Source: Selenomonas sp. AE3005
Lineage (GTDB): Bacteria > Bacillota > Negativicutes > Selenomonadales > Selenomonadaceae
Length of the DNA stretch: 64,000 nt
Assembly (NCBI RefSeq): GCF_000686945.1
Contig: NZ_JMME01000001.1
Coordinates: 372,001 to 436,000 of the forward strand
Direction: 5' to 3'
The translations under genes were made by a program, and so were the position numbers. Under the pieces are notes generated by a model that saw only the letters and a list, made by a program, of their open reading frames with translations, was not told where the DNA came from and did not search any database. Below, in pieces: positions 2,345-50,761 of the stretch (its first letter is position 1; the number at the start of each line of letters is the position of its first letter).

Positions 2345-4027
2345 TTAGAAATAAACGCCGCCACGAATCCAGAAGTGACCACTGTTATCAGTAGAATCTG
2401 AAACTGGTTTTTCTGGCCCTAACCGCCATGCAAAATCGGTGCGAATGAACCAATCTTCATAACGGGAGAAGATAAGGCCAATGCCGGCACCTTCCAAATG
2501 ACGATAGCTATCGCCAGCGTTACTCATGCGGAGAATGCCGCCGTGGTCGAAATAGAAAGCCAGCTGCAACTGTTTATCCTGTTCTTTAAGCGGAATCAAA
2601 TGACGCAGTTCAGCTCTGACGATATAACCGCTGTCACCGGAGGCCTCACTGGAAGGATAAGCACGTACGCCGTTGAACCCACCCAGGCTCATATGCTCTG
2701 AGGAATCCAAATCCTGATATGCGTACTGGCCTCTGCCGGAAAGCAACAGATACCAGCGAGGATTCAAGTCCTCACGGCGTGTGATATAACCTTTGAGTTT
2801 GTAGTAGCTGCCACTAGGATGATTTGGACTTAGCGTATCTTTTGAGTAACCTACATTACCAAACTTGTTCTCAATGCGCCAGAAGGTACTGCCATGATGG
2901 TCTGTTTCATCACCATATAAAGAAAGAATTATGGCATTACCATTTTTATCATCTGTAAATCCAGCTAAGCGGTATTCATCTTTCAAGGCGCTGTGCTCAT
3001 AGCGAATGCCTGTATAAAGATTATTTTTTTGACTGCGGCGAATAGCATAATCAAGCCCCACATTAAAAATACGGGCTGTACCTACAGCATCCAACTGCTC
3101 ATATTCCGCACCCATATTATAACTTAAAACGTTATACCCTACAGATGCTTTCAAGCCATCCACAGCTACGGGAATAGAATAATTGAAACCATAGTTATAT
3201 AGTTTTTTGTTGGTATATAAACCACCAATTGCAAAATGGTCACCTTCATGGGCCAAATTTAGGAAATCGTAATCAATTCCCAACTCGTTATAACCGGTAT
3301 GACGGTTGCCGTAATTATCTACGGTGACAAGTCCCTGTTTGCCCTTGTGCTTGTTGAGGTCAATTTCCACATGTACCGTACCTGGTTCAGAACCCTGGGA
3401 CAGTACAGCCTTGGCGTCAGCACCGGCTAAATCTGACAACAGCCAGATAGCACGCTGCAACTTATCTTTGGTCAGGTATTCGCCCTGTTTCAAGCAGCGT
3501 ACTTCACGCGCTACAGCCGAATCATGAATAGTCGTATGGTTGCGGATAGTCAGCTTGTCAAACTTACCAACTTCCACAGCATACTCTACAATGCCGTTGG
3601 TGATTTTCTGCACAGGCAGATATACGCGTACCGCCACATAACCACGGTCACGGAAATACGCTGACAATTCGTCAGCACCTTCCTCCAAATCACGGAAGGA
3701 GAGTAGTTTTCCCTTGCGCTTATCGAGGACAGCCAGCAGCTTTTCTTCCGGGTAAATATCCTGCCCAGTCACTTTAAAGCCCTTGACTTCTACCTTGACT
3801 TCATCCGGTAAATCAAGTTCCGGACGGGAATCAGGTATGGACACATCAGCTTTGTCTTTTTTGTCTGCATCAAGTATAGCCTGACGTCTTTCATTGGCAT
3901 CTTCAGCCAGCTGACCGGCATTGATACCTTCAGTTCCTGGGACAGGAGCAGCATCTACTGCTGTAAAAGATAAGCTCCCCATAGTTGTTGCCAGTAAAAC
4001 AGCCCTGGTTAATTTATTTACTAACAA
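2345..4027 (-). CDS. TpsB-type outer-membrane transporter (FhaC/ShlB family)
   Basis: The 560-residue outer-membrane pore exports the TpsA proteins encoded beside it (type Vb, two-partner secretion). A signal peptide ends near TAVDA-APVPG. POTRA domains occupy about residues 75-225 (VEVKGFKVTGQDIYPEEKLL, then FRDRGYVAVRVYLP). A beta-barrel follows with many alternating aromatic strands, ending in GVYF as outer-membrane barrels do. The conserved lid-loop motif of the family (VRGY/F) appears as GGFNGVRAYPSSEASGDSGY near residue 460, with Ala in place of Gly. The start is TTG, with AGAAGG eight bases upstream. It is last in the leftward tps cluster and is the only TpsB gene in the window, so it probably serves all three TpsA proteins. 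Confidence 0.93.
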   Translation of the reverse strand: MLVNKLTRAVLLATTMGSLSFTAVDAAPVPGTEGINAGQLAEDANERRQAILDADKKDKADVSIPDSRPELDLPDEVKVEVKGFKVTGQDIYPEEKLLAVLDKRKGKLLSFRDLEEGADELSAYFRDRGYVAVRVYLPVQKITNGIVEYAVEVGKFDKLTIRNHTTIHDSAVAREVRCLKQGEYLTKDKLQRAIWLLSDLAGADAKAVLSQGSEPGTVHVEIDLNKHKGKQGLVTVDNYGNRHTGYNELGIDYDFLNLAHEGDHFAIGGLYTNKKLYNYGFNYSIPVAVDGLKASVGYNVLSYNMGAEYEQLDAVGTARIFNVGLDYAIRRSQKNNLYTGIRYEHSALKDEYRLAGFTDDKNGNAIILSLYGDETDHHGSTFWRIENKFGNVGYSKDTLSPNHPSGSYYKLKGYITRREDLNPRWYLLLSGRGQYAYQDLDSSEHMSLGGFNGVRAYPSSEASGDSGYIVRAELRHLIPLKEQDKQLQLAFYFDHGGILRMSNAGDSYRHLEGAGIGLIFSRYEDWFIRTDFAWRLGPEKPVSDSTDNSGHFWIRGGVYF

Positions 4028-4185: not shown

Positions 4186-7100
4186 TTACTTAAGAAGTGA
4201 CGTTACCTCGCTCTTGTTGTCGAAATGAATGTAAACGCCATTCAAATCATCGAGCGTGATACCCATTTCTTTAAAGGCTGCAAACAGGGCCAGTGACTCA
4301 ACTTCCACGTTCTTAGTCACTTCACCTGCCAGCAGAATGCTCTTACTAGCATTATCCGTCGGATAAATGTCAAAGGTAGAACCATTATAGGTCAGTTTGA
4401 ATTTAGCTGTACCGGCCTGTGTAGTAAGTTCCTTATCATACTCCCGATACTGATTCTGCGGCTGGTCAGGTTCCGGCAGGACCTTAGCGGAGGGTTCCAT
4501 CTTCACCTTATCCGGGTCAATGGAAACATCATATGTGCCATAGAACTTAACCTGATGTAATTCTTCACGGAAGAACGGCAGTTCAGCACTCTGCAAACCT
4601 AATACCCGGTCAGTACCAGGTGCAGGACGATTGGCTGTCGTGTAAGAAGCCGAACCGTCCACATTCGTAGTGGTGAGGTTATCAAGCTGTGGTTTTTCAT
4701 AATTTTGATTCTTATTTGACTGAGGTGTTTGCTGTGGTGTTTGCTGTGGTGTTTGCTGTGGTGTTTGCTGTGGTGTTTGCTGTGGTGTTTGCTGTGGCTG
4801 TGGTTGTGGTTGTGGTTGTGGTTGTGGCTGCGGATCTGGCTGTGGATCTGGCTGTGGATCTGGCTGTGGATCTGGAATCATAGCTTTAGTTACTTTAAGT
4901 GTTCCAGGATTAAACGCAGTCTTATAGCCGAAATCTTCCAGTCCCACTTTGGCATTTGCCGTATTTTTCAGCTCAATACCATCCTTATATTCACCTTCGA
5001 CATCAGGCGTAACACCATCTTTCAAGCCTGCTGCCACCTGGTCTAACTTATAATTGCTCTTAAGGGCATCAACATCGCCATCCTTGAAATTTGCTGTAAA
5101 TCTGCCGTTCAAAGCACTACCATTAAGCATGTAGCTTTCAGCATAATCCAATACAGGCATTTCCTCGTCAGCTGCTTTTGTTTTATCATTAGCCGTGTAA
5201 AGAACTTCCGGCGTAGCTTTGAAAATGAAACGGTTATGGGAATCATCAGCAGCATTGTACTGGAATCCAGTCTTGCCCCAGCTCCAGACAGCAAATTCAT
5301 TACTGTTCAAATTGCCAAGGTCATCACTAGGATTATCAGAATAGATCTTCCAGGCACTGCCATCGCCAACCTGTATAGCTTGTTCTGGTACTGATGCTCT
5401 TAAGAATCGCATTGTTGTTACGGGAACGGCAGTTTTGTTGTGGAAATTACCCTGTGCAATTATTTCTACGGCCTTTGAATTATTTTGAGCATCGGACTTT
5501 ATTTTACCGTTAATAGTTACATCATTATCTGCGACCATACTGATAGTATTACCAGCAGTAATTGCCCCCGTGGTTATATCATGATTTGGAGCTGCCGCTC
5601 TTGTAACAATAACACCGTCTTTCCGTGCATCATCGCCAGCAATAAGTTCTACCAAGCCACCAGCATTTGTAGCCCCGCTAATAGTGGTATTATTAGTAGA
5701 TATGGTCTTTACATCATTATCAACATACACAGAACCCTTGAGGTTAATGTTGGCAGAAGATGCTACAGTCAAGTTGCTCAGCTTAGTATCGTTACCAATA
5801 TCACCACCAATAGTAGTTTCACCAGCATTGATATTTAAAGCTGTATGTGCAAGATTAGTTTCAATCACACTGTACTTATATTTGTCATGATTACTACAAA
5901 CATCATCCCACTTGGCATAGAAACGATCCTTAGCCGTATTAGGATCATATGCTGAATAATTTACACTTAATGCAGTTTGCGAGCCTTCGTTACTTTCACC
6001 TTGATCATCATTCGGTTCACCGGGCGCAAAGTTGCTGTATATCACATTACCATTTGCATCTATAGGTTTTTCACCGTGATTATTTCTCACTGATTCCGAA
6101 ATACTACTAGGCTTCTTATAGTCTTCTTGGTTTAAATATTTCCCTATCCTTTGAATAAAGAAAATTGTTCCTTTTTCATTTTCATTACCATCAACCCAGG
6201 CCCAATAACGTACGGGGTTACCGTCAGCATCCTTGTACCAGCCACCGTCTAAAGCAGTATTACTATTACTTTTTTTGGCTTCTACAAGAATTTTCACGGT
6301 ACCATCAGTATTATATTGTACTTCTGGTTTACCATCTTTTAAGATAACATTACCATTCTCGTCAGCTTTTACGGCAACTACATGACCACCAACAAAGGCT
6401 TCGGACTTATTGTTAGTATCAGGTGGAATCGTTGCACTGATAACAGCATCCTCTAAGGCTCCCGTAATTACAGCTAAATACGACTTTGCTGTAGTGTTAT
6501 CCCCAAAATATGTCTTTGCTGCAGCATTAGCATTTCCCCAGGTTGTATTAGAACCATTATTCCAAAGGCTATATGCATTCGCTGAGTTGATTGTTCCGTT
6601 AACAAAAACACTACCGCGTTTTATATTATTCTTATCAGTATTATCTTCTGTATACAGATCTACAGTATTACCAGTTGCCAGCAGTACTTCGTTCCCACCG
6701 AATGAAATATTGCCGCCTTTCGTATTTATGGTACGAGTTGTCTGTGTCTCGTTTTTTATCAAATTAGTTAATTCATCATTTTTTAAGCCAATATACGTAC
6801 CATTATCGCCTGTCGTTGTAAAATCGCCACCGTTTGTAGCGATATCACTGCGGATAATTACAGCACCGTCACTGCGGGTAGATTTCGTGCTATCTTTATT
6901 ATCCCCATTCAGGTTTACATCCAGCTTTCCTGCTTCGCTCGTAATAGCAGCATCCACACTAATATTGCGGCCAGCAGTCAGGGATAGACTCGTATCCTTT
7001 ATGCTTCTATCGTCATTTTTGTCAGCCTTTATAATATTCCAATTAATCGTTATATCCGAATAATAATCCTCCCGTAACGGACTGGCTACAATATTGACAT

Positions 7101-8166
7101 TTGTATCACGCAAGGTATCACTAAGGGATGTTGCACTAATTACAGCCTTCTTCTTCTCTTCTGTGTTTCCAGTGGCAATTGTATCAATAATCGCATTCGT
7201 ACTAAGAATATTTAAGGTTCCTGCCCCTTTATCTGCAGATTCTGCATCAATTTTAGAGCCATCTGCTACTTGCACCTTATCGCCAACAAGATTTACATCT
7301 CCCAGCAATATCATATTGCCAGCATCATCCTTATAAATTCTGTTAGCGGCTGAAACCTTCTCTGTATTGACTAAATCCTGCATTACATTTTGTGCATCCT
7401 TCGCCTTCATTAAGACTGCCTTTAATGTACCGCTGTTTATGACCTGTCCACCTTTGCTTAAGTTTTTGACGCGAACACCTATTTTGCTGTCATAATCTAA
7501 TATCTCTTCTGAAGATTTAGCCGAGGCATTATCCAGATTAAACAACTCAACGCTATCACCAGAAACCAAATTCACCTGCCGTGCGTTGATTGTACCTTGG
7601 TTTTCCACTTTGTGAGCAATCAACGCCACTAAACCATTTTCAGCTTTAATATTGGCAAGATTGGAGACCGTTATTGGTTCCTCAGTATTTCCATTGAATT
7701 CATAAGTACCTTTGTTAAAATTACTGTTAATAATATCTCTTGTTGATGCTACTAAGCTGCCAACCTCGACTTGTGCACCTTCACCAAAGGTAATACCGTT
7801 TGGATTGATTAGAAATACTGTGCCATTTGCGTCACCAGATAGCGTTCCGTATATTTCTGATAAGTTGTTACCCGTTACACGATTTAACACCAGCCAGCTG
7901 CCACCATTTTCACGATGGAAATTTACGGAATGGTCTTTGGCGATACTAAAGTCACTCCAAGTTGCAACAGATTTGTCTTTTCCAACATTTAATTCCAAAT
8001 GAGTATCACTAGATTTTTCTACATTTTTGGATACGCCGTCTGATTCCAGCCCTACCGGCAAACCAGAATCTGGCATCGCCATCACGCTCGGCATCCACGC
8101 CGTGGCCATAATGGCTGCTGTCAGAGCCAACATTTGTTGTTTTCTGAATTTTGCAATCCTTTTCAT
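4186..8166 (-). CDS. TpsA1: filamentous haemagglutinin-like exoprotein with embedded C-type lectin-like domain
   Basis: This 1326-residue cargo protein has an extended signal peptide (MKRIAKFRKQQMLALTAAIM...). The TPS secretion domain covers about residues 35-250, with the family hallmark INPNGITFGEGAQVEVGSLV near 118-137. A beta-helical stalk rich in NIxxxG and TxGN repeats follows. Residues about 530-780 read as a C-type lectin-like domain: [31 protein letters not shown] (EPN at 717-719) and KWDD (753-755). A WKIYSDNPSDDLG segment and an MBG-like module come next. The linker has PDPQ, PQ and QQTP repeats, then a ~150-residue C-terminal domain shared with the two paralogues. The GGAGGAGG ribosome site is strong. 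Stalk and TPS domain are sure; the lectin assignment is by motif. Confidence 0.93.
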   Translation of the reverse strand: MKRIAKFRKQQMLALTAAIMATAWMPSVMAMPDSGLPVGLESDGVSKNVEKSSDTHLELNVGKDKSVATWSDFSIAKDHSVNFHRENGGSWLVLNRVTGNNLSEIYGTLSGDANGTVFLINPNGITFGEGAQVEVGSLVASTRDIINSNFNKGTYEFNGNTEEPITVSNLANIKAENGLVALIAHKVENQGTINARQVNLVSGDSVELFNLDNASAKSSEEILDYDSKIGVRVKNLSKGGQVINSGTLKAVLMKAKDAQNVMQDLVNTEKVSAANRIYKDDAGNMILLGDVNLVGDKVQVADGSKIDAESADKGAGTLNILSTNAIIDTIATGNTEEKKKAVISATSLSDTLRDTNVNIVASPLREDYYSDITINWNIIKADKNDDRSIKDTSLSLTAGRNISVDAAITSEAGKLDVNLNGDNKDSTKSTRSDGAVIIRSDIATNGGDFTTTGDNGTYIGLKNDELTNLIKNETQTTRTINTKGGNISFGGNEVLLATGNTVDLYTEDNTDKNNIKRGSVFVNGTINSANAYSLWNNGSNTTWGNANAAAKTYFGDNTTAKSYLAVITGALEDAVISATIPPDTNNKSEAFVGGHVVAVKADENGNVILKDGKPEVQYNTDGTVKILVEAKKSNSNTALDGGWYKDADGNPVRYWAWVDGNENEKGTIFFIQRIGKYLNQEDYKKPSSISESVRNNHGEKPIDANGNVIYSNFAPGEPNDDQGESNEGSQTALSVNYSAYDPNTAKDRFYAKWDDVCSNHDKYKYSVIETNLAHTALNINAGETTIGGDIGNDTKLSNLTVASSANINLKGSVYVDNDVKTISTNNTTISGATNAGGLVELIAGDDARKDGVIVTRAAAPNHDITTGAITAGNTISMVADNDVTINGKIKSDAQNNSKAVEIIAQGNFHNKTAVPVTTMRFLRASVPEQAIQVGDGSAWKIYSDNPSDDLGNLNSNEFAVWSWGKTGFQYNAADDSHNRFIFKATPEVLYTANDKTKAADEEMPVLDYAESYMLNGSALNGRFTANFKDGDVDALKSNYKLDQVAAGLKDGVTPDVEGEYKDGIELKNTANAKVGLEDFGYKTAFNPGTLKVTKAMIPDPQPDPQPDPQPDPQPQPQPQPQPQPQQTPQQTPQQTPQQTPQQTPQQTPQSNKNQNYEKPQLDNLTTTNVDGSASYTTANRPAPGTDRVLGLQSAELPFFREELHQVKFYGTYDVSIDPDKVKMEPSAKVLPEPDQPQNQYREYDKELTTQAGTAKFKLTYNGSTFDIYPTDNASKSILLAGEVTKNVEVESLALFAAFKEMGITLDDLNGVYIHFDNKSEVTSLLK
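4722..4875. repeat. In-frame tandem repeats encoding the Pro/Gln linker of TpsA1
   Basis: Three adjoining arrays are visible: a 12-base unit (GTGTTTGCTGTG on the plus strand, about seven copies, giving QQTP), a 6-base unit (TGTGGT, giving PQ), and a 12-base unit (ATCTGGCTGTGG, giving PDPQ). All units are multiples of three, so slippage would change linker length without breaking the reading frame. Confidence 0.9.
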
Positions 8167-8216
8167 AAGCTGCCTCCTCCTTTTCTAATTCTCTTTTAAT
8201 AATAAAAACCAAGCAT

Positions 8217-8245
8217 AGTATAACATAATCAAGGACATGTGACCA
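8217..8245 (-). promoter_or_regulatory. Promoter of tpsA1
   Basis: Reading leftward: -35 TGGTCA (8240-8245), 17-base spacer, -10 TATACT (8217-8222) with an extended TG. The -35 overlaps an imperfect TGTGA-N8-TCACG dyad (8238-8255). Confidence 0.55.
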
Positions 8246-8323
8246 TATTATCACGCAAAATAATCGTAAAAAATTTATAATTGTTACAATTATAAAATGT
8301 TTTACACTAAAATACGCATTATG

Positions 8324-8363
8324 CGTGACAAAAGTCACAGGCTGGATTGTGACTTTTGTCACA
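8324..8363. promoter_or_regulatory. Tandem TGTGA-N6-TCACA dyads (Rex- or CRP/FNR-like operator) or intercistronic hairpin
   Basis: CGTGA-CAAAAG-TCACA (8324-8339) and TGTGA-CTTTTG-TCACA (8348-8363) have centres 24 bp apart. The second is a perfect CRP-type palindrome and, with its preceding T, matches 11 of 12 fixed positions of the Rex operator TTGTGA-N6-TCACAA. The two halves also pair with each other as a 15-bp stem with an 8-base loop, but no U tract follows on the minus strand. The pair lies just after the tpsA2 stop and about 115-150 bases upstream of the predicted tpsA1 transcription start. Confidence 0.5.
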
Positions 8364-8383
8364 TCTTTTAGGCTGTTTTACTT

Positions 8384-11300
8384 TCAATTACGAAAGGAAT
8401 TGTCACTTTTCTTACTGAAATGCGTGTAAACACCGTCCAAATCGTCAAGAGTTATGCCCATTTCCTTGAAGGCGGTAAACAGCGCCTGCGACTCAACATC
8501 CACGTTTTTAGTCACATCGCCAGCTATAAGCATATCCTGGGCAGAACCATCAACAGGATAAATATCAAAAGTAGAACCGTTATAGGTCAGCATGAATTTG
8601 GCCACGCCTGTTGGAGTAGTCAGTTCCTTTTCATACTCACGATACTGGTTCTTTGTCTGTACAGGTTCCGGCAGAACTTTGGCCATGGGTTCCATCTTTA
8701 CCTTGTCCGGGTCAATAGAAACATTATAGGTGCCATAGGATTTTACCTGCCCACCTTCTTCACGGAAGAACGGCAGTTCAGCACTTTGCAAACCTAATAC
8801 CCGGTCAGTGCCAGGTGACGTACGAGGAGCCGTAGTGTAAGAGGCCGAACCGTCAACATTCGTGGTAGCATGTGGGTCAAGCTGCGGGGTTACATCACCA
8901 GGGTTCTCGGTATTAGACTTCGGTTGCGGTTTTACATCACCGGGATTTGTATCTCCTTCCGGTTCTGTGGGCGGCGTCGGACCTGGTTCTATGCCAATAA
9001 CCGTCAATGTACCAGGTTTAGCATCTAAAATATATCCATGGTCACGTGCCGTAGTTTGCATGTTGGTAAAATCAATCTTATAGGTGCCAGCTGCCGCATT
9101 GGCAGGAAAACCTGGCGACTGCGTACCAACATTATTAAGGCCATACTCAGCAAGCAGGCTGTCGTCAAAACCATCGCGGAAATTGTTTGTATAACGTCCG
9201 CTTAATTCGTTATTGAAGGTATAGCCTGTGTCAGTAAGTACTTCCCCAACCTGTTTGCTGGCATCGTTGGCCGTAAAGGTAAGCGTCGGGTTGTACTTAA
9301 AGACAAAACGATTGCCTGTAGCCGCAGAAGTCGATGTACCATCCCAGCCCCATTCGGCAAAGTTGCCACTGTCAAGATTACCCAGATCGTCACTAGGACT
9401 GTCAGAATAAATCTTCCAGGCACTGCCGCTGCTCACCTGTATCGCTGGGCTCTGATCTGCTGTAACAGCGTTTAATCTAAACAAACGCATGGGAGTCACT
9501 GGCACGGCAGTATTATTGTGGAAATTCCCCTGTGCCCTGATTACCACAGCCTGCTGATTACTGTCAGCCTCTGCCTTTAACGTGCCATTGATGGTAACGT
9601 CATTATCCGCTGTAATACTTATGGTTTTACCAGTAACAGCATTAACATTTACATCACGTCCGGCTATAGCTTTATCAGCGCCGGTGCCAGCAAACAAGGA
9701 AACATCTTTGCCAGCCTCAGCAGCTTGCGCAAGTAAAAGACTATTTACAGCCGTTGCCGACAGATTCCCATCAACCTGCACGGAGCCATTAGCTTTGATA
9801 TCGGCATTAGCATTGACGGTCAAGTCATTCAACTTGGTAATACTGCCCACATTCCCCTGCAGGTCAACCTTATTACCCTTGATGTCAAGGGAAGTTTTCC
9901 CCAGTTCCGTTTCTACCACATAAGTCTTTATGAGGTCATTGTTATCATGGATGTCCTCATAGATATCATCCCACCGGGAATGATAGTTTATGGCCAGACA
10001 GTTCTGGGTATTTATTTGAATTAAATCATCATTAGGTTCATTCGCAAGGAAATTGGTATAGCCATAGGCTTTGCCAAAATGTTTGAGCTGCTTGTAATTC
10101 GCTTGGGTAGGTTCAATGCTAGTGCCCTGGGCACTCTGTATAGCCTGCACATAAAAGACCTTCCCTGCTTCAGGCCCGGTCACCCATGCCCACAGGCGCA
10201 CCAAAGTGTTGTCGTTGACCTTGTACCAGCCGCGATTTCCGTTCTCCGCTCTTACATTGTAGCTATTTTTCCCATACGCCGTATCAGTATAGATGAGCTG
10301 CAGCTTTCCTTCAGGTATTTTGCCATCAGCTGTCAACCCTATTAAATTTATGTTGCCATTTTCGTCTACCGTACAGGTAACACATTCCGGCATAGCCACC
10401 ACATGGCCGCCGATATGGGATTCCGCTTCAGTGGGGGCCACAGAATTCACTACAGCATCCTCCAGGCCGCTGGTGATGACAGCCAGGTATCCCCCCTGTT
10501 CCTCAGCACTTTCCTTGGACCCCTGCAATGTTACATTATGTAATGCGCCGGATTTATTGTCCCAGGGAATCTTAGCGCTAGTCCTTCCTATGGTGTACTT
10601 GTTTCCTGAATCCACCTTACCAGTAATGGTAACATCACCAGCAGACTTGCCGTCTGCTACAGTCGTATCCAGTGTCACCTTGCCGCCGGTTGCCAGCAGG
10701 ACTTCACCGTTCAGGGTGATATTGCCGCCGTTCGTTACCACAGTCCGGTCTTTACCTGCTTTTTCACTATCCTTCAGCCCAAAGTATGTTCCGTTCATAC
10801 CAGTAGTGGTAAAATCGCCGCCATTGGTGTTAATGTTGGCTCTGATAATAGACGCACCATCTATTCGCTCAGATTTACCATCCAGTTTGTTATTGGAATT
10901 CAAGGTAAGATTTAGTTTGCCGGCCGTACTCGTAATATCCGCATCCACACTGATATTGCGCCCGGCCGTCATGGTTAGGCTGGTGTCAGTTCCATCTTCC
11001 TTTTTTATCTCATTGGCAACCTTAATGTCTGTGAAGTCTGTCGGGCTGCCAGGTTTTGCTACGACATTGACATTGGTGGTTTTTAGCGAGGATGTAATAA
11101 CGCGATTATTGACCACATTGCCACTATCTGTTGTAATAACATCATGGCTGATATTGACATTGTCACTTTCAATGTTCCAGGTGCCAGCCTGACCGTTTTC
11201 CCCTGCGGCATGAATGCTGGCCACCTTAAAGTAGCTGGAAGAGTCTTTTTTTAATTTTTTGTTACCTGCTACCAGTAAGTCCTTAGTGCCGATGGTATTG

Positions 11301-12448
11301 ATGACACCGCCATTCACCGGCCCATCAGCTTTTACATTACCTGCCACAATCAGCTTCTCAGCCTTCAAAGAAATACTGCCGCCATCGGCCACCTTTTCCC
11401 CATCAATTACCGATGTGGCCTCGTCCTCACTCAGTCTTCCTATAGCCTTCACAGCATTCTCGGTGACTATGCTGTTGCCCTCAATGCTGATATGACCGCC
11501 GTTGCCGCTCTTAATGGTTTTGCCGTCTTTTGTCTGTCCGCCATTGGCTCTTATATCGCCGCTATTCCAAATACTATAGCCACGAATATCTATATCGCCG
11601 CCATCCGCCAGAATTATATTACCTTCTGCGTCCTTCGTTATCTTCTTGGCAGCTACTACGCCGGAATTTGCGATTATCCCATTTAAGGCCTTCTTAGCCT
11701 CCCCGGCTGTCATCACAACATAGCCATCATTAGCCGACAACGTACCAGAGTTGAGGATATTCACGTCAGCGCTCTCATCTACGCCAGCATTTACCTTAAT
11801 GCCAATCTTGTCATCCAGTGCCAGCTCAATTTCATTACCTGTTCCTATACCAATCTGGCCAGCTGAAATTTTACCTTTGTTTATTACCTGATGGGCAAGG
11901 AGAACTACCTTTTTATCATTGGACATGCTGATATTGGCTAAATTATTTATGACACCAACAGTATCGCCTTTCTCAAATAAATACTTGCCATTTATAAAGT
12001 TATCATCAGTGATATTCAAAGTCGAGGCAACCAGGCTCCCTACATCTATCTTAGCACCTTCACCAAAGGTAATGCCACTAGGGTTTATCAGGAATACTGA
12101 CCCGCCTCTTCCTTTGATTTCACCATATATTTCTGACATTGGCCCGTTGGGAACACGATTGAGCACCCTAAAGCCATCTGTTCCCTTAAAATTTACTCGT
12201 GCACCACTGCCAACATTGAAGGTGTCCCAGTTTATAACAGCACTGCCGTTAACTTTCACGGACATCTGATTTTTCTCTTTAACAATACCATCTCTGCTTA
12301 TGTCGGCATTACCTTTGATTAAGTTTTCTCCTGTGGGCAACGCATCTGTTGCTGGTGCAGCTATCACGCTCGGCATCCACGCCGTGGCTAAAATGGCTGC
12401 TGCCAAAGCACATAATCGCTGCTTGCGCAGCTTTGTTATTCGTCGCAT
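8384..12448 (-). CDS. TpsA2: filamentous haemagglutinin-like exoprotein with embedded C-type lectin-like domain
   Basis: About 1354 residues, paralogous to its neighbours. I place the start at the ATG giving MRRITKLRKQ, which aligns with the paralogues; upstream ATG (12454) and GTG (12460) codons are in frame but lie closer to, or within, the AAGGAG site. After the signal peptide comes the TPS domain with INPSGITFGEGAKIDVGSLV, then a beta-helical stalk. The lectin-like domain (residues about 620-855) shows GGYLAVITSGLEDAVV, LWAWVTG, EPN (804-806) and RWDD (826-828); its EPN is preceded by NFLAN rather than NFAPG. WKIYSDSPSDDLG, an MBG-like module and the common C-terminal domain follow. The linker lacks long repeats and holds two NPGDV units, so paralogue differences concentrate there. 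Confidence 0.93.
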   Translation of the reverse strand: MRRITKLRKQRLCALAAAILATAWMPSVIAAPATDALPTGENLIKGNADISRDGIVKEKNQMSVKVNGSAVINWDTFNVGSGARVNFKGTDGFRVLNRVPNGPMSEIYGEIKGRGGSVFLINPSGITFGEGAKIDVGSLVASTLNITDDNFINGKYLFEKGDTVGVINNLANISMSNDKKVVLLAHQVINKGKISAGQIGIGTGNEIELALDDKIGIKVNAGVDESADVNILNSGTLSANDGYVVMTAGEAKKALNGIIANSGVVAAKKITKDAEGNIILADGGDIDIRGYSIWNSGDIRANGGQTKDGKTIKSGNGGHISIEGNSIVTENAVKAIGRLSEDEATSVIDGEKVADGGSISLKAEKLIVAGNVKADGPVNGGVINTIGTKDLLVAGNKKLKKDSSSYFKVASIHAAGENGQAGTWNIESDNVNISHDVITTDSGNVVNNRVITSSLKTTNVNVVAKPGSPTDFTDIKVANEIKKEDGTDTSLTMTAGRNISVDADITSTAGKLNLTLNSNNKLDGKSERIDGASIIRANINTNGGDFTTTGMNGTYFGLKDSEKAGKDRTVVTNGGNITLNGEVLLATGGKVTLDTTVADGKSAGDVTITGKVDSGNKYTIGRTSAKIPWDNKSGALHNVTLQGSKESAEEQGGYLAVITSGLEDAVVNSVAPTEAESHIGGHVVAMPECVTCTVDENGNINLIGLTADGKIPEGKLQLIYTDTAYGKNSYNVRAENGNRGWYKVNDNTLVRLWAWVTGPEAGKVFYVQAIQSAQGTSIEPTQANYKQLKHFGKAYGYTNFLANEPNDDLIQINTQNCLAINYHSRWDDIYEDIHDNNDLIKTYVVETELGKTSLDIKGNKVDLQGNVGSITKLNDLTVNANADIKANGSVQVDGNLSATAVNSLLLAQAAEAGKDVSLFAGTGADKAIAGRDVNVNAVTGKTISITADNDVTINGTLKAEADSNQQAVVIRAQGNFHNNTAVPVTPMRLFRLNAVTADQSPAIQVSSGSAWKIYSDSPSDDLGNLDSGNFAEWGWDGTSTSAATGNRFVFKYNPTLTFTANDASKQVGEVLTDTGYTFNNELSGRYTNNFRDGFDDSLLAEYGLNNVGTQSPGFPANAAAGTYKIDFTNMQTTARDHGYILDAKPGTLTVIGIEPGPTPPTEPEGDTNPGDVKPQPKSNTENPGDVTPQLDPHATTNVDGSASYTTAPRTSPGTDRVLGLQSAELPFFREEGGQVKSYGTYNVSIDPDKVKMEPMAKVLPEPVQTKNQYREYEKELTTPTGVAKFMLTYNGSTFDIYPVDGSAQDMLIAGDVTKNVDVESQALFTAFKEMGITLDDLDGVYTHFSKKSDNSFRN

Positions 12449-12497
12449 AAGCATCTTCACTCCTTTTTAATCTATTTTTAATAGTCTGACCATTTTG

Positions 12498-12506
12498 AGT
12501 ATAGCA
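12498..12506 (-). promoter_or_regulatory. Extended -10 promoter of tpsA2
   Basis: TGCTATACT on the minus strand lies about 50 bases before the tpsA2 start, just downstream of the tpsA3 terminator. No convincing -35 is present, as is common with extended -10 promoters. Confidence 0.5.
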
Positions 12507-12547
12507 CCTTTTTTGATAATTGACTATATACTTTTGCAAAATAATGT

Positions 12548-12576
12548 AAAAAGCCACAGAAAAACTGTGGCTTTTT
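12548..12576 (-). terminator. Intrinsic terminator downstream of tpsA3
   Basis: Arms AAAAAGCCACAG and CTGTGGCTTTTT form a 12-bp stem with a 5-base loop and a U run on the minus strand. It separates the tpsA3 transcript from tpsA2. Confidence 0.88.
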
Positions 12577-12600
12577 AAGATATCATTGATATAACGTTAT

Positions 12601-12727
12601 TTAGTTGTCTTTAGGAGCAACAGCCAACGCCTCCGCATCGAGAACGATGTCATCATCAACCTCAGACACTTTGACCGGGCCGCTGCGTCCCTTTAAATCG
12701 TCAATTATTTTTTTGCCATTACTCTCT
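12601..12727 (-). other. Open +1-frame tail after the tpsA3 stop (possible frameshifted C-terminus)
   Basis: Immediately past the tpsA3 TAA, the +1 frame stays open for about 45 codons and reads like protein: [14 protein letters not shown], then VSEVDDDIVLDAEALAV, ending PKDN-stop. Shifting +1 near the codons TTT CGC CGC TAA would append it. TpsA1 also has a shorter +1 tail (EALNIINDLPDM). It could be a lost ancestral extension, a programmed frameshift product, or chance. Confidence 0.3.
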
Positions 12728-15700
12728 TTAGCGGCGAAAGGGTAACACCTCTTTCTTGCCATCAAAATGAGTATATACGCCGTCCAAATCATCAAGGGTT
12801 ATGCCCATTTCCTTGAAAGCGGCAAAGAGCGCCTGCGACGAAACATCCACGTTTTTAGCCGCATCGCCAGCCATTAAAAGGGCTTTGGCCGAGTTGTCTA
12901 CCGGATAGATATCAAAAGTAGAACCGTTGTACGTCAGCATAAACTTAGCTGCACCGGCCGGTGTTGTCAGTTCCTTTTCATACTCGCGGTACTGATTCTT
13001 CGGCTGGTCTGGTTCAGGCAGAACCTTCGCCGTTGGCTCCATCTTGACCTTATCCGGGTCAATGGAAACATCATAGGTGCCATAGAGTTTTACCTTACCG
13101 CTTTGCTCACGGAAGAAAGGCAGTTCAGCACTCTGCAAACCCAAAACTCTGTCAGCACCGGGGCCGACGTTGCGTTCTGCCTCTGTATACGATGCTGATC
13201 CATTGATATTTGTGGTCTCATGAAGGTCAAGCTGTGGCCGATTATATTCATATTGCTCAGCAGATGGCTCTGTTGGGGCTGTGGGTTGAACCGGCGTTGA
13301 TGTTGGTGTGGGTGTTGGTGTAGGTGTTGGTGTAGGTGTAGGTGTTGGTGTAGGTGTAGGTATTGGTGTAGGTGTTGGTGTAGGTGTTGGTGTTGGGGTG
13401 GGTGTTGGTGTTGGGGTGGGTGTGGGTGGTGGTGTGGGTGTTGGGGTGGGTGTGGGTGGTGGTGTGGGTGTTGGCTTATCTTTTACAATTAGATTACTGG
13501 GTACAAGTATGTTCTTATATCCTGCTGCAATTACTGTATTTTCACCAATATTGAATCCGATTGTATATTCCCCAGGATTTGCTTCCTTCGCGTAACCTTC
13601 GGACACAGTGCTGATGGTATTCAGTTTAGCAGCAACATCCTCTCTAGCGAAGAATTTATCCCTATAGCCATCAAGGAAATTATTAGTATACTTGTTTTCC
13701 AGCTCATTCTTAAATGTATAAGCAACCGGAGTCTTTAAAGTACCCCATTCTTTTTCTCCGCCATCCTCGGCAGTAAAGGTAAGTGTTGGGTTATACTTGA
13801 AGATATAACGATTGCCCTCGGCAGCCGTGCTAGTGTTGCCATTCCAGCCCCATTCGGCAAAATTGTTGCTGTTCAAATCGCCCAATATATCTGCGAACGG
13901 CGTATTAGAATATACCTTCCAATGACTGCCCTCACCAACTTTCAGTGCATTGGCACTATTAGAAGCCTCATTTAAGAATCTCTCTTGAGCACGAATTTCA
14001 ATGGCATTTTGTGTATTCTCTGCAGAGGCAGCAAGAATGTTATTTATATTAACGTCTTTCTGAGCACTTATAAAAATACTATTATCGACAGCAACTGAAT
14101 CACCTGTAATAACATTACCTTTGGAATTTATATCTAAGTTTGCTATCTTTGTAATATTTCCAATTTTATCTGATAATGTTGTATCACCGGCATTTATACT
14201 TAATGAGCTGTGTCCCAACTTGGATTCAACCATGTAGTTGTATATATATTTGTTATTTGCGTCAACTATATCATCTTCTGTATCATCCCATTGCGAACGT
14301 AATATTTTGCCTAACTGATTTAATTCATATGTATCATAATTCACAGCCAATGCAGTCTGACTTGTGTGTCCTTTGTCATCATTAGGCTCGCCAGGAGCGA
14401 AGTTGACGTAATACCCACTTACTACATAGCCATGATCTGTTTCGGTAGTATCACCTATATCATGGGGAGTGTAGTTATTTCCTGCAACATTTTCGCCATA
14501 AATTTGTACGTAAAAAATTTTACCTTTTTCTTCACCTTCAGTCCAGGCCCAATAGCGTGCATAGCTTCCATCTCTAAGCTTATACCAGCCACCATTTTTT
14601 CCTGATACATTTGTGTTGTCATTGATGATGGTTTTTACAGATTTATTATCCCCTTCCCCTACATATAACACTTCAGGTAATAAGCTGCCTTCAGTGGTCA
14701 CTTCACCGTTTCTATTCCTGACTTCGACAGCTTTTCCTTCCGAATCAACAACATAGTCAACATCTGGGCCGCAACCATCTTTATGCACAACCTTACCATC
14801 TTCATCAACGTAGTTTCCTTTAGCGGTTTTTACTGCAACTACATGACCACCAGCATATGCTTTCTGTCTAAAACTAAAATCCAATGGAGCAGTAGAAGAT
14901 ACTACTGCATCTTCCAAGGAACTAGTAATAACTGCCAAATAAGAGTCGCTTTCAGATTTAGCTTTCGATTCAGCCTCAGACCACGATAGCGGTTTTTTCT
15001 TATTCGTTGATGGATCCTTATTGGTAATAGTTTCATAATAATTCGCAGAATTAACCGTCCCATCTATAATGACACTACCATTCTTATTATTGGAGGTTGT
15101 ATCTAATGTCACTATGCCACCAGTTCCTAATAAAACTTCAGCACCACCAAGTTTAATATCTCCACCATGAGTCTTTATATATCTATCGGTGTTAATCTCT
15201 GACTTATTCTTAATGCCAAAATACGTCCCATTTGTCTTTACATCATTACTATTAAACTCAGAAGTTTTAAAATCACCTCCGTTGGTATCAATATTAGCTC
15301 TTATTATATTGGCACCGTCATGGCGAATTGAATTTGTCTTTTCAAAACCAGCCGTATCGCCTTCTAATATAAGATTCAACTTGTTTGTCTTGCTCATGAT
15401 ATCTGCATCAACACAAACATCACGTCCAGCTGTAATAGTTAATGTCGTATCGTTTGGAATATTTGAGACATTAGCCTCCAATTCATTTGCAACTTTTGTA
15501 ATAGGTTCGCTAATATGAACATCAGAGAAATAATTTTGAATTGTTGGACTGGCCGTAATATGCACATTGGTATCAAGCAGCGATTGGCTGATAACATCGC
15601 TATATATAGTATTATTAGCGCCACTCTTATCAACTGTTAATACTTTACCAGTACTGTTCCAAGTTCCGGCTTTAGTTCCATCTTCTGATACAGAGTGGAT

Positions 15701-16657
15701 ATCAGCGCCATTAATCACTTTGATATTTTCATAGCCAGTAGTGGTAATCGTTCCCCCTTTGGATACTAACTTTCCACTAACTGTAACATTAGCAGCCGCC
15801 AATGCGATATTACCGCCATCTCCGGTAAGTTCTACCACCTGCTTACCGTTTTCATCTTTGCTGACTTTGATTTCTTTGGCAACTTGAATCGTTCCCGTGT
15901 TTTTGATAAGGCTGTCAGCAATATTCTGATCTATATTTTTGGTATTAAAAAGGATTAAGTTTTTTTCAGGATCAATCTTGGCATCATTTGGCAAATCTAT
16001 CTGCATGCTTATTTTATCAGTATAGCTTAGTTCAATTTTATCCCCAAAACCCATGGCAACATCTGATGCAGAAATCGTACCTGCGTTATTGATAATATGA
16101 GCCAGGATTGCCACATAGCCATCTGTGGCGGCGATATTAGCCGTTCCTTCTACAGTTATGGCACGTTTATTATTATCTGCTTTTTCAAATACATATTTGC
16201 CTTGCATGAAACTTTCGTAATCCGCTTTCATGGTAGAGGCTACCAAGCTGCCAACATCGACTTGTGCACCAGCACCAAAGGTAATACCATGGGGATTTAT
16301 TATAAATACTGTCCCCCCAGTGCCATTAAGAATACCATCAATACGAGAACTGTCATTTCCTGTTACACGGTTTAAAACTGCCCAACCAGTATCATTCGGC
16401 TTACTAAATGTTACGCTATGGCCTTTTGCAATGTTAAATGACTCCCAGTTTATAGCCGCTTTATCAGCATTTAGTGTGACCTGCATTTGTTTTTCTTTAG
16501 AGGTATCAACTACCGCACCTTGTAATAAGGCTTTATCATTAGTTGCTAATACCGGCAAATCAGGAGCCGCCATCACGCTCGGCATCCACACCGTGGCGAT
16601 AATGGCTGCGGTCAGCGCCCCTATGCGCTGTTTTCTGTGTTTCGCTATCCATGTCAT
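12728..16657 (-). CDS. TpsA3: filamentous haemagglutinin-like exoprotein with embedded C-type lectin-like domain
   Basis: This is the first of the three paralogous cargo genes in transcription order, 1309 residues. The signal peptide is [20 protein letters not shown]... and the TPS domain carries [20 protein letters not shown]. The stalk has TxGGDI and GTVNSAN repeats. The lectin-like domain (residues about 530-820) is the clearest of the set: [57 protein letters not shown] (EPN 757-759) and QWDD (790-792), ending [22 protein letters not shown] and an MBG-like module precede a Pro-Thr repeat linker of about 70 residues and the shared C-terminal domain ([14 protein letters not shown] onward). 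The gene has its own promoter and terminator. The whole trio looks AT-richer than the flanking housekeeping genes. Confidence 0.93.
13300..13476. repeat. In-frame tandem repeat encoding the (PT)n linker of TpsA3
   Basis: About 175 bp of 6-base units (GGTGTT, GGTGTA, GGTGTG variants on the plus strand) encode alternating Pro-Thr. Unit length keeps the frame, so copy number can vary without loss of expression. It differs completely from the linkers of the two paralogues. Confidence 0.9.
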
Positions 16658-16816: not shown

Positions 16817-17269
16817 TCACTCCCCTGCAAAGAGCAGTGCCCAGTAATAATGCCCATCTTCCTTATTGTACTTGCATTCAACACCCATGCGCACATAGTG
16901 GCGGCCAAGGATGTTAGCACGATGAGTTGGAGAACCCATCCATGCACGTACAATTCTCTGAGCGTCTTTAACCCCGCTGACTGCCAGGTTTTCACCAAAC
17001 CAGCCGCAAGTGCCATTTTCCAGAACTGATTTAACATCTCTGCCATCAGGACGCTGATGTGCGAAGCTCACCTGAGCCTCTTTTGCTCTTACATCTGCAC
17101 AACGACCGATCATGTCATCGAGTACCAGCGGCTGCAAGCCTGCATTAACTCGTTCAACATTCACGAAATACTGCACTTCAGTCCGAATATCGGAAGCAAA
17201 AACAGGAGATGCTACAATCAGAGCTGCGAACATGACCAGTGCAAACATAATGCGCTGCATAGTTCTCAT
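16817..17269 (-). CDS. Secreted CAP/SCP-domain protein
   Basis: The 150-residue protein has a signal peptide (MRTMQRIMFALVMFAALIVASPVFA) and then a single CAP (SCP/PR-1-like) domain. The domain signs are VNVERVNAGLQPLVLDD, SFAHQRPDGR with the first His, ENLAVSG, and AWMGSPTHRANILGRHYVRMGV with the second His; it ends in YYWALLFAGE. Bacterial CAP proteins are exported and of largely unknown activity. The start has a GGAGAGG ribosome site five bases upstream. It is transcribed from a good promoter placed just beyond ligA, giving an unusually long leader of about 220 bases. Confidence 0.92.
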   Translation of the reverse strand: MRTMQRIMFALVMFAALIVASPVFASDIRTEVQYFVNVERVNAGLQPLVLDDMIGRCADVRAKEAQVSFAHQRPDGRDVKSVLENGTCGWFGENLAVSGVKDAQRIVRAWMGSPTHRANILGRHYVRMGVECKYNKEDGHYYWALLFAGE

Positions 17270-47173: not shown

Positions 47174-47209
47174 AAAAGTCCGTTGACACATTTTTGTCAA
47201 CGGACTTTT
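47174..47209 (-). terminator. Intrinsic terminator of nifJ
   Basis: AAAAGTCCGTTGAC and GTCAACGGACTTTT form a 14-bp stem with an 8-base loop and a U run. The core CCGTTGAC...ATTTTT...GTCAACGG is shared with the terminator beside repeat copy B. Confidence 0.9.
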
Positions 47210-47236
47210 AACTTACATGCGGTAGATTACCGCATA

Positions 47237-50200
47237 TTATTTGCCAGCGAGTGCCTTGTAGCCTTCGTAACGGCCCTTGGCATCGTTCTGGGTCTTTTCA
47301 AAGAGTGCCTCAGCAGCCTCCGGGAAGGAGCGCTGGAGGTTGATGTAGCGGTTTTCGCCCATCAGGAATTCCTGGAACTTGTCGAAGTCCGGTTCCTTGG
47401 AATCGAGGCTGAACGGGTTCTTATCCGTACCCACGAGCTGCGGGTTGTAACGGTAGTTCACCCAGTAGCCGCATTCCACGGCCAGTTTAGCCTCGAGCTG
47501 GCTGTTGCCCATACCCTTGCGGATACCGTGGTTGATGCACGGTGCATAAGCGATAATCAGGGACGGACCATGATAAGCCTCAGCCTCAGTGATAGCCTTC
47601 ATGAGCTGGTTGTGGTCAGCGCCCATAGCAACCTGTGCCACATAGACGTAGCCATAGGACTTAGCCATCATGCCGAGGTCCTTCTTCTTCGTCTTTTTAC
47701 CAGCAGCGGCAAACTGAGCGATAGCTGCAGCCGGCGTGGACTTGGAGGCCTGACCGCCCGTGTTGGAGTAAACTTCGGTATCGAAGACGAGCACATTGAC
47801 ATCTTCGCCGGATGCCAGTACATGGTCAAGACCGCCGTAGCCGATATCATAAGCCCAGCCGTCGCCGCCCAGAATCCACTGGGAACGTTTCACGAAGTAG
47901 TCCTTATTATCATAAAGCTTGCTGAGCTGTTCATCGCTGCCCTTTTCGGATTCGAGGAGCGCCGTCAGCTTATCGGCACGTTCACGGGAGCCTTCACCCT
48001 CGTTCATGTTGTCCACCCATTCAGTGAGGGCTGCCTGCAGTTCTGCACTGCCCTTGCCTGCCTCCACAGCAGCCTTGGCATCAGCAGCCAAAGCATCACG
48101 GACGGATTTCGTGCCCAGGAACATGCCCAGACCAAATTCGGCGTTGTCCTCGAACAGGGAGTTTGCCCAAGCCGGGCCATGGCCCTTATGATTCTTGGTG
48201 TACGGCATAGCCGGAGCACTGCCGCCCCAGATGGAGGAACAGCCCGTAGCATTGGCTACCATCATGCGGTCACCGAAGAGCTGCGTCAAAAGTTTAGCAT
48301 ACGGGGTTTCACCGCAGCCTGCGCAGGCACCGGAGAATTCGAGCAGCGGCTGTTCAAACTGGGAACCAAGCACCGTCGTCTTCTTCATCGGGTTCTTCTT
48401 CGGCGCAACCTTCTTGGCATCTACGCCGTAGTCGAAGAACACCTGCTGAGCCTTGAGCTCATCATCAAGCGGTTTCATATCGAGAGCCTTCACCGGGCAG
48501 ACCTGAGCGCAGTTGCCGCAGCCCAGGCAGTCCATCGTGGATACGGCTACCGTGAAAGTGTAATCCTTGATGGCCTTCGTCTGCTTGGACGGGAAACCAG
48601 CCGGAGCATTCTTGAGTTCTTCTTCCGTCGTGAGTACCGGACGGATAGCAGCATGCGGGCAGACATAGGAGCACTGGTTACAGCCAATGCACTTGTCCGT
48701 ATTCCAAACCGGTACATTGATGGCCGTACCGCGTTTTTCGTAAGCCGCACCGCCAACCGGGAACGTACCATCTACCATGTCTTCCGTAAACTTGGAAACC
48801 GGCAGCTTGTCGCCTTCCTGACGGTTCATGACTTCCTGGATTTCCGTGATGAATGCCGGAGCATCTTTCACCTCTACAGCATCATCTGCGGCATCAGCCC
48901 AGGCAGCCGGTACTTCTACGCGATGGAGGGCCTCGATACCCTTGTCGATAGCGCCGTTGTTCATGTTGACAACTTTTTCGCCCTTCTTGCCGTAGGACTT
49001 AACTACAGCGTCTTTGAGGTATTCCACAGCTGTTTCGAGCGGAATGATGGCAGCAATCTTGAAGAAAGCAGACTGCATAACCATGTTGAAACGGCCGCCG
49101 AGGCCAAGTTCTTTAGCGATATCCACAGCGTTAACCGTGTAGAATTCGATTTCGTTCTTGGCGATATAGCGTTTCATGGCAGCCGGCAGGTGCTTGTCAA
49201 GGTCTGCATCCGACCAGACCGTGTTGAGCAGGAACTTGCCGCCCTTTTTGAGTCCGGCCAGCAGGTCGTATTTATAAACATAGGACTGCTGGGAGCAGGA
49301 AATGAAGTCGGCGTTGTTGATGAGATACGGGCTCGTGATGGGCTGCTTGCCGAAACGCAGATGGCTCATCGTGATGCCGCCGGACTTCTTGGAGTCATAG
49401 GCAAAATAAGCCTGGGCATACATGTCCGTCTTGTCACCGATAATCTTGATAGCGCTCTTGTTGGCACCAACCGTACCGTCAGAGCCAAGGCCCCAGAACT
49501 TGCAGGCCGTCGTGCCAACAGGGGTGAGGTTCACATCGCTCATAACCGGAGTCAGGCTCGTATGGGTTACATCGTCATCAATACCGATGGTGAAACCGTC
49601 TTTCGGAGCGTCTTTCTTGAGTTCTTCAAACACAGCGAAAATCTGGTCCGGCGTCGTGTCCTTGCCGCCCAGACCGAAACGGCCGCCCACGATGATGGGG
49701 TTAAGTTCGGAGCCATAGAAAGCGGATTTAACATCGAGATACAGCGGTTCGCCCAGGGAACCCGGTTCCTTCGTATGGTCAAGCACAGCAACCTTCTTGA
49801 CCGTCTTCGGCATAAACTGGAAGAAGTGCTTGATGGAGAACGGACGATAGAGATGTACACTCATCAGGCCGACTTTTTCACCCTGCTTGTTGAGGTAGTC
49901 GACCGTTTCCTGTACAGCCTGGCAGACGGAACCCATGGCGATGATGATGCGGTCAGCATCTTTAGCGCCATAGTAGTCGAACAGGTGATGTTCACGGCCC
50001 GTGATTTTAGCCAGGTCTGCCATGGCCTCTTCAACGAGTTCCGGCAGAGCCTCATAGAACTTGTTGGACGCCTCGCGTTCCTGGAAGTATACGTCCGGAT
50101 TCTGCGCGGTACCGCGGATAACCGGATGGTCCGGATTCAGCGCCCGGCGGCGGAATTCTTTTACAGCCTCCCAGTCGAGAATCTTGCCCAAATCATCATA

Positions 50201-50761
50201 ATCCACAACTTCGATTTTCTGAATCTCATGAGAGGTACGGAAACCGTCGAAGAAGTTAATGAACGGCACACGGCCTTTAATAGCCACGAGATGGGCTACA
50301 GCAGCCAGATCCATAACTTCCTGTACGCTGGCCTCACAGAGCATAGCACAGCCGGTCTGACGGGCAGCCATAACGTCCTGATGGTCACCGAAGATATTCA
50401 AAGAGTTAGCGGCCAGCGCGCGGGCGGATACATGGAACACGCCCGGCAGCAGTTCGCCGGCTACCTTGTAGAGATTCGGAATCATCAGCAGGAAACCCTG
50501 CGATGCAGTATATGTGGTGGTCAGCGCACCAGCCTGCAGGGAACCGTGTACGGCACCAGCAGCACCAGCCTCTGACTGCAATTCAATTACGCGGACTTTC
50601 TGACCAAAAAGATTGGTCTTGCCTTTAGCAGCATCCTCATCTACATGTTCTGCCATCGGGGACGATGGAGTGATGGGATAAATAGCTGCCACGTCGGTAA
50701 AAGCATAAGAGATATATGCGGCGGCCTGGTTGCCGTCCATGGTTTTCATCTTTTTGCTCAT
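47237..50761 (-). CDS. nifJ: Pyruvate:ferredoxin (flavodoxin) oxidoreductase
   Basis: This 1174-residue homodimeric enzyme oxidises pyruvate to acetyl-CoA and CO2 and reduces ferredoxin or flavodoxin. Domain I starts MDGNQAAAYISYAFTDVAAI with IYPITPSSPMAEHVDE; the gamma and CoA regions follow. A two-cluster ferredoxin insert has CIGCNQCSYVCPHAAIRP (about 690) and CLGCGNCAQVCPVKALDM (about 750). The C-terminal TPP domain has GACAGCGETPYAKLL, ATGCSSIWG and GDGWAYDIGYGGLDHVLASG. Full length for the fused type. It is monocistronic with its own promoter and terminator and shows strong codon bias, consistent with high expression in fermentation. Confidence 0.97.
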   Translation of the reverse strand: MSKKMKTMDGNQAAAYISYAFTDVAAIYPITPSSPMAEHVDEDAAKGKTNLFGQKVRVIELQSEAGAAGAVHGSLQAGALTTTYTASQGFLLMIPNLYKVAGELLPGVFHVSARALAANSLNIFGDHQDVMAARQTGCAMLCEASVQEVMDLAAVAHLVAIKGRVPFINFFDGFRTSHEIQKIEVVDYDDLGKILDWEAVKEFRRRALNPDHPVIRGTAQNPDVYFQEREASNKFYEALPELVEEAMADLAKITGREHHLFDYYGAKDADRIIIAMGSVCQAVQETVDYLNKQGEKVGLMSVHLYRPFSIKHFFQFMPKTVKKVAVLDHTKEPGSLGEPLYLDVKSAFYGSELNPIIVGGRFGLGGKDTTPDQIFAVFEELKKDAPKDGFTIGIDDDVTHTSLTPVMSDVNLTPVGTTACKFWGLGSDGTVGANKSAIKIIGDKTDMYAQAYFAYDSKKSGGITMSHLRFGKQPITSPYLINNADFISCSQQSYVYKYDLLAGLKKGGKFLLNTVWSDADLDKHLPAAMKRYIAKNEIEFYTVNAVDIAKELGLGGRFNMVMQSAFFKIAAIIPLETAVEYLKDAVVKSYGKKGEKVVNMNNGAIDKGIEALHRVEVPAAWADAADDAVEVKDAPAFITEIQEVMNRQEGDKLPVSKFTEDMVDGTFPVGGAAYEKRGTAINVPVWNTDKCIGCNQCSYVCPHAAIRPVLTTEEELKNAPAGFPSKQTKAIKDYTFTVAVSTMDCLGCGNCAQVCPVKALDMKPLDDELKAQQVFFDYGVDAKKVAPKKNPMKKTTVLGSQFEQPLLEFSGACAGCGETPYAKLLTQLFGDRMMVANATGCSSIWGGSAPAMPYTKNHKGHGPAWANSLFEDNAEFGLGMFLGTKSVRDALAADAKAAVEAGKGSAELQAALTEWVDNMNEGEGSRERADKLTALLESEKGSDEQLSKLYDNKDYFVKRSQWILGGDGWAYDIGYGGLDHVLASGEDVNVLVFDTEVYSNTGGQASKSTPAAAIAQFAAAGKKTKKKDLGMMAKSYGYVYVAQVAMGADHNQLMKAITEAEAYHGPSLIIAYAPCINHGIRKGMGNSQLEAKLAVECGYWVNYRYNPQLVGTDKNPFSLDSKEPDFDKFQEFLMGENRYINLQRSFPEAAEALFEKTQNDAKGRYEGYKALAGK

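Follow-up and report, generated by a model that had tools for sequence, protein, structure and literature searches.

Three tandem genes in the 64-kb window analysed here (the whole stretch of Selenomonas sp. AE3005 DNA) encode TpsA exoproteins, T1, T2 and T3, each of which carries within its beta-helix a domain that is homologous, by comparison of sequence profiles, to C-type lectin-like domains (CTLDs). This TpsA-lectin architecture is real, and the domain is at present left unannotated by the Pfam and NCBIfam models. The reading that we judge probable is that the three proteins are type Vb rods, each bearing a sugar-binding CTLD with a calcium site, which would form an adhesin array whose specificity is switched by exchange of central segments.

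Organisation of the locus

The genes for T1 (1326 aa, 4186-8166), T2 (1358 aa, 8384-12460) and T3 (1309 aa, 12728-16657) form a tandem array on the minus strand. After them comes a single tpsB gene (2345-4027, minus strand) coding for an outer-membrane transporter with POTRA_2 and ShlB domains (Pfam, E = 2e-11 and 4.5e-21), the presumed exporter of all three. TpsB orthologues adjoin homologous TpsA genes in most of the loci fetched, and five TpsB genes and six stretches with a TPS domain were counted in the source genome. The assignment of the three open reading frames to the TpsA exoproteins, made in a preliminary description of this DNA, is borne out by a TPS secretion domain in each of them (Pfam, E = 5.5e-27, 1.2e-25 and 8.2e-30 for T1, T2 and T3). 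The order of parts in T1 is TPS domain, beta-helix, CTLD, beta-helix, Pro-rich linker and conserved C-terminal domain. The CTLD is encoded, always on the minus strand, at 5848-6579 in T1 (approximately residues 530-773), at 9884-10603 in T2 and at 14201-15043 in T3, which has the longest insertion between strand beta-2 and the WAW motif.

The C-terminal domain comprises ~160 residues (12728-13240 in T3, and likewise at the 3' ends of T1 and T2), is ~67-85% identical among T1-T3, with conserved stretches of 13, 12 and 13 residues, and is present in most homologous TpsA proteins; neither Pfam nor NCBIfam gave a match to it in T1-T3. It is possibly an anchor or a pro-domain. Pro-rich low-complexity linkers stand directly before it in T1 (4684-4875, PQQT/PQPD) and T3 (13251-13508, PTPTP), and T2 has no linker of this form. 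On the other side of the TpsA genes, 16817-17269 encodes a secreted CAP-domain protein that is linked to TpsA genes in several genera (L027, L029, L030, L031, L033 and L077; 55-97% identity). A GDSL-type esterase gene (672-2291) adjoins tpsB and has relatives beside the TpsA loci of genome G157 (82%) and of Schwartzia (35%); the enzyme could act on acetylated glycans.

A C-type lectin-like domain in the beta-helix

In each of T1-T3 a non-beta-helical domain of ~240-280 residues was found. Its motifs run in the order W..A..A helix, YLAVITS.LEDAV, GGH, WYK, WAW..G, NF....EPNDD, WDD and Y-V-E in T1 and T3. The lectin-like order that had been described for all three proteins thus holds for these two, and T2 deviates from it by a degenerate first helix (PWDNKSGA) and by NFLANEPNDD in place of a 10-residue stretch. 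The EPN codons lie at 6010-6018 (T1), 10031-10039 (T2) and 14381-14389 (T3), and those of WDD, the equivalent of the WND motif, at 5902-5910, 9965-9973 and 14282-14290 (all minus strand), exactly where they had been placed. Four residues do not vary among 34 homologous domains, namely the P of EPN, the W and last D of WDD, and the second W of WAW; since the mean column identity of the alignment is 27%, such conservation argues that the motifs are not due to chance.

The search against the Pfam Lectin_C model that had been proposed as a check did not return the domain. There was no match in T1-T3 or across the whole source genome, and the gathering score, which is the threshold of one model rather than a property of the fold, was reached by no member tested (best of 31 members, E = 0.0097). 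A compact homologue from Schwartzia gave a sub-threshold match (E = 0.014). This compact form, present in two Schwartzia records, lacks the long insertion that follows beta-2, and its likeness to bacterial Lectin_C proteins is plain.

The homology itself was established by comparing profiles. A 31-row profile of the TpsA domain family (A7) was aligned by hhalign with an alignment of Lectin_C-positive proteins from the same broad phylum (A4, four sequences only), and matched it end to end (98.8%, E = 6.3e-17), with EPN on EPN, as also seen for T1, and WDD on WND. Smaller sets of TpsA domains gave the same match: 98.1% (E = 9e-14) for a 14-row profile, 97.4% for a profile without Schwartzia, 95.2% (E = 2.6e-8) for the window trio alone and 89.5% (E = 2e-6) for T2 alone, and 40 column shuffles and one reversal of A4 remained at or below 1%. 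The cysteine-bearing pair of A4 taken alone matched weakly (35%), so the kinship is closest to cysteine-poor bacterial CTLDs. In searches of the PDB, the top sequence match of TpsA profile A1 was the carbohydrate-recognition domain (CRD) of surfactant protein D (SP-D; E = 0.004), with a 12-residue stretch aligned; SP-D came first again for A7, with EPN and WND both aligned, but at E = 0.93, probably because more divergent clades blur the loop. A single-sequence search of the PDB returned only a hydrolase, which was judged a chance match.

Few cysteines had been noted in these domains, and the counts agree (1, 3 and 1 in T1, T2 and T3). One of those in T2 (QNCLAINY) occupies the place of the cysteine that follows the calcium ligand in canonical CTLDs. 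With 0-3 cysteines per domain, the two conserved disulfides of sugar-binding C-type lectins are absent, and the Lectin_C-positive bacterial relatives have few cysteines as well.

Predicted structure

An AlphaFold model of T1 residues 440-870, computed with 11 aligned proteins, places a mixed alpha/beta domain between two blocks of beta-helix rungs (model residues 1-90 and 335-418), with pLDDT mostly ~80-95 in the rungs. A continuous beta-helix through the region, the outcome named beforehand as contradicting a lectin domain, is not what this prediction shows, and was rejected on that basis. The domain comprises helices at 104-112 (WGNANAAAK) and 131-140 (ALEDAVISAT), strands at 154-158, 212-217 (up to WAW) and 229-233, short strands at 293-300 and 311-313 (before WDD) and a strand at 324-331 (YKYSVIET), which is the strand order of CTLDs. 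The long loop is modelled at pLDDT below 50 over much of its length. The three highest-ranking PDB structures in a Foldseek search were C-type lectins (CEL-I twice and Reg3-alpha), at non-significant values (E = 0.76 or worse). A Foldseek search against viral models gave no informative match, and an AlphaFold model of the compact Schwartzia domain (pLDDT 39.5) was set aside. The prediction supports an interruption of the beta-helix and, with the Foldseek ranking, is compatible with a CTLD fold without proving it.

The putative sugar and calcium site

All 34 domains have an EPN-like tripeptide or QPD in register in the long loop, T1-T3 having EPN. Positions 1 and 3 of the tripeptide change together throughout: 28 domains have EPN, EPS or DPN, six have QPD and none is mixed. 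The domains with QPD fall into two clades that stand apart in the domain tree (support 100/99 and 92/84). In C-type lectins EPN and QPD constitute the mannose/galactose code (PMC5379193). To judge from the aligned sequences, a coupled switch of this kind would be hard to explain without a site that works or has recently worked.

Two further ligand positions correspond to E193 and N205 of the mannose-binding protein. The E193 equivalent, one of five calcium ligands, is Q in T1-T3, so that the acidic ligand is lacking there; it is E in 3 of the 34 relatives and G in another clade (7/34). At N205 the window proteins have D, and a sister Selenomonas clade has A or S (12/34); correspondingly, the middle residue of WDD/WND is D in the window (a conservative change), N in three relatives and A or S in that sister clade. 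Members with A or S at N205 or G at E193 may have altered metal binding and perhaps do not bind calcium. Among close relatives the two positions tend to be paired: Q at E193 is accompanied by WDD in 10 of 11 EPN-type proteins, two of three QPD proteins combine E with WND, and the net charge stays at -3 in 12 of 14. The domains of T1-T3 would presumably depend on calcium and be selective for particular sugars.

Probable exchange of the central segment

A syntenic locus in genome G147, which is of another species, has the same gene order as the window (DHH-type phosphatase, UvrD-type helicase, LigA, CAP protein, three TpsA and TpsB; names partly given from sequence resemblance). Identity between T2 and its G147 orthologue is ~92-96% along most of the two proteins. 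For T3 and its counterpart it is 82-95% in residues 121-300, 33-62% in the middle and 83-97% in the final ~170 residues, and identity at third codon positions falls from 78-95% to 24-53% in the centre and returns to 80-92%. Where T3 has EPN and WDD, the G147 protein has QPD and WND, and the beta-helix segments of the two proteins vary too. The simplest reading of these sequences is that the central part of T3 has been exchanged or replaced, the tripeptide changing with it. This agrees with the domain tree, in which T3 is placed among EPN proteins from Anaerovibrio and Selenomonas, and its counterpart in the QPD clade. In genome G157, a frame-broken remnant of a TpsA C-terminal domain (L029:10215-10492) lies between the CAP gene and the remaining TpsA gene, which suggests loss of a tandem copy.

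Proposed mode of action and alternative explanations

T1-T3 would be rods secreted by the two-partner (type Vb) pathway, with a long-loop CTLD inserted part-way along the beta-helix. The TpsA chain would pass unfolded through the TpsB pore and the CTLD would fold outside, possibly stabilised there by extracellular calcium. Such export is consistent with the scarcity of cysteines, because disulfide-locked folding in the periplasm would block it; the title of a reference cited in PMC5422565 reports a globular conformation to be incompatible with FhaC-mediated export. EPN or QPD, the E193 equivalent and WDD or WND would form one calcium site at which the sugar is bound, with EPN domains preferring mannose/glucose-type hydroxyls and QPD domains galactose-type ones. 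The beta-helix would serve as a stalk and the CTLD as a head or side-arm, holding the lectin away from the cell, and the putative anchor behind the Pro-rich linker may attach the rod. Together T1-T3 could serve as an array of adhesins that recognise glycans of hosts, plants or microbes, and lineages would change specificity by exchanging the beta-helix and lectin segment in the centre, while the secretion and C-terminal ends stay conserved. We give about even weight to the broader proposal that a TpsA family of rumen and other Selenomonadaceae carries disulfide-free, calcium-dependent lectin heads whose EPN/QPD specificity is switched by cassette exchange at a fixed locus.

CTLDs often lose sugar binding. 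The domains of T1-T3 could have the fold and yet bind proteins or be purely structural, with neither sugar nor calcium involved, in the manner of the lectin-like domains of intimin and invasin; the Q at the E193 equivalent in the window, the WAD or G at ligand positions in some relatives and the protein binding of lectin-like domains in type Ve adhesins (PMC6555100) speak for this. However, intimin and invasin CTLDs are without the long loop (PMC6468738), which is kept here along with EPN or QPD, and the coupled switch in two clades is hard to explain without a canonical site, so that we consider a protein-binding or structural role unlikely. Somewhat less probable still is that adhesion resides in the face or loops of the beta-helix and that the CTLD has a different role, for instance in spacing or in TpsA-TpsA contact. 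EtpA is thought to bind its glycan, blood group A, via an unbroken beta-helix (PMC11463764), and the variation of the beta-helix between the syntenic T3 proteins would suit this explanation, but no module other than the CTLD bears a known ligand-site signature, and this signature is conserved and switches in the canonical manner.

An extra-helical insertion with lectin-like motifs arisen by chance would account for the lack of a Pfam match above threshold and for the Foldseek value of 0.76. It is already disfavoured and highly improbable in view of the whole-domain profile match with motifs in register and controls at 1% or less, the SP-D match and the invariant residues across 34 proteins. 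Hypervariation by a diversity-generating retroelement, a system whose targets often have a CTLD-type fold, was also considered; the CTLD sits mid-protein here and not at the 3' end.

Relation to known systems

The sugar-binding CTLD thus proposed resembles the CRDs of SP-D and mannose-binding proteins (PF00059) in the order of helices, strands and motifs and in the occurrence of both EPN and QPD variants; a 10-residue stretch followed further on by WND in these CRDs nearly matches a 10-residue stretch followed by WDD in the TpsA domains. In contrast to these CRDs, the TpsA domains have no conserved disulfides, mostly Q as the E193 ligand, WDD for WND and an insertion of 50-100 residues after beta-2, and they fall below the Lectin_C threshold. 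The closest CTLD relatives by profile are two bacterial Lectin_C proteins from the same broad phylum (L095 and L096) and a protein of Listeria aquatica (L043), which share W..A..A, GYLATIT...E, W.W..GPE.G..F, EPN and WND, although their carriers have repeats typical of Gram-positive surface proteins and no TpsA beta-helix. In the Listeria MucBP/Big_3 surface protein (L043:5389-7611) the CTLD is likewise invisible to Pfam and keeps EPN, E and WND.

The TpsA adhesins FHA, HxuA and EtpA have the same TPS domain, beta-helix rod and TpsB partner, and EtpA is a functional blood-group-A lectin. Unlike the window proteins, EtpA binds glycan by repeats without an extra-helical domain and HxuA has short extra-helical loops only, and none of the three is described with a CTLD in PMC11463764. 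Intimin and invasin (type Ve) are likewise type V secreted proteins that adhere by means of a CTLD, but their CTLDs cap Ig-like stalks and have protein ligands, whereas T1-T3 combine an EPN-bearing long loop with a beta-helix stalk. A literature search on CTLDs with TpsA, Selenomonas, Negativicutes and rumen adhesins, with most subscription journals outside its coverage, found no description of the combination. Animals are the best-known source of long-loop CTLDs that follow the EPN/QPD code. Their occurrence on exported rods of bacteria, where the motif shows the same paired switch, makes the glycan specificity of common rumen bacteria a matter of testable prediction. A further question posed by the architecture is how a globular lectin domain gets through the TpsB pore, and the loss of disulfides is suggested as a partial answer.

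Distribution in the Selenomonadaceae

The domain was identified in 34 TpsA proteins from 24 of 189 Selenomonadaceae genomes (31-row profile, stricter cut of 1e-4), including 21 of the 99 genomes of good quality; a single-sequence search had reached 10 and the 14-row profile 25 of the 189. A TPS domain is present in 33 of the 34 proteins, and the remaining one is cut by a contig end. Relatives were recorded in Selenomonas ruminantium metagenome-assembled genomes, Anaerovibrio and Schwartzia. A single-sequence scan of genome contigs gave no match, and an alignment-based pattern scan of such contigs, of limited sensitivity, retrieved only Selenomonadaceae and one Listeria protein; a 399-genome sample of the phylum, equally limited in sensitivity, had matches only in Selenomonadaceae.

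Two further features were observed. A region of the window at 47183-50761 contains two open reading frames on opposite strands (1130 and 1174 aa) that overlap by more than 3 kb, one of which is probably spurious. Finally, a Schwartzia TpsA protein (L035:8155-13476) has, in addition to its CTLD, an SMC-like coiled-coil of ~200 residues (approximately residues 387-585) in the stalk.
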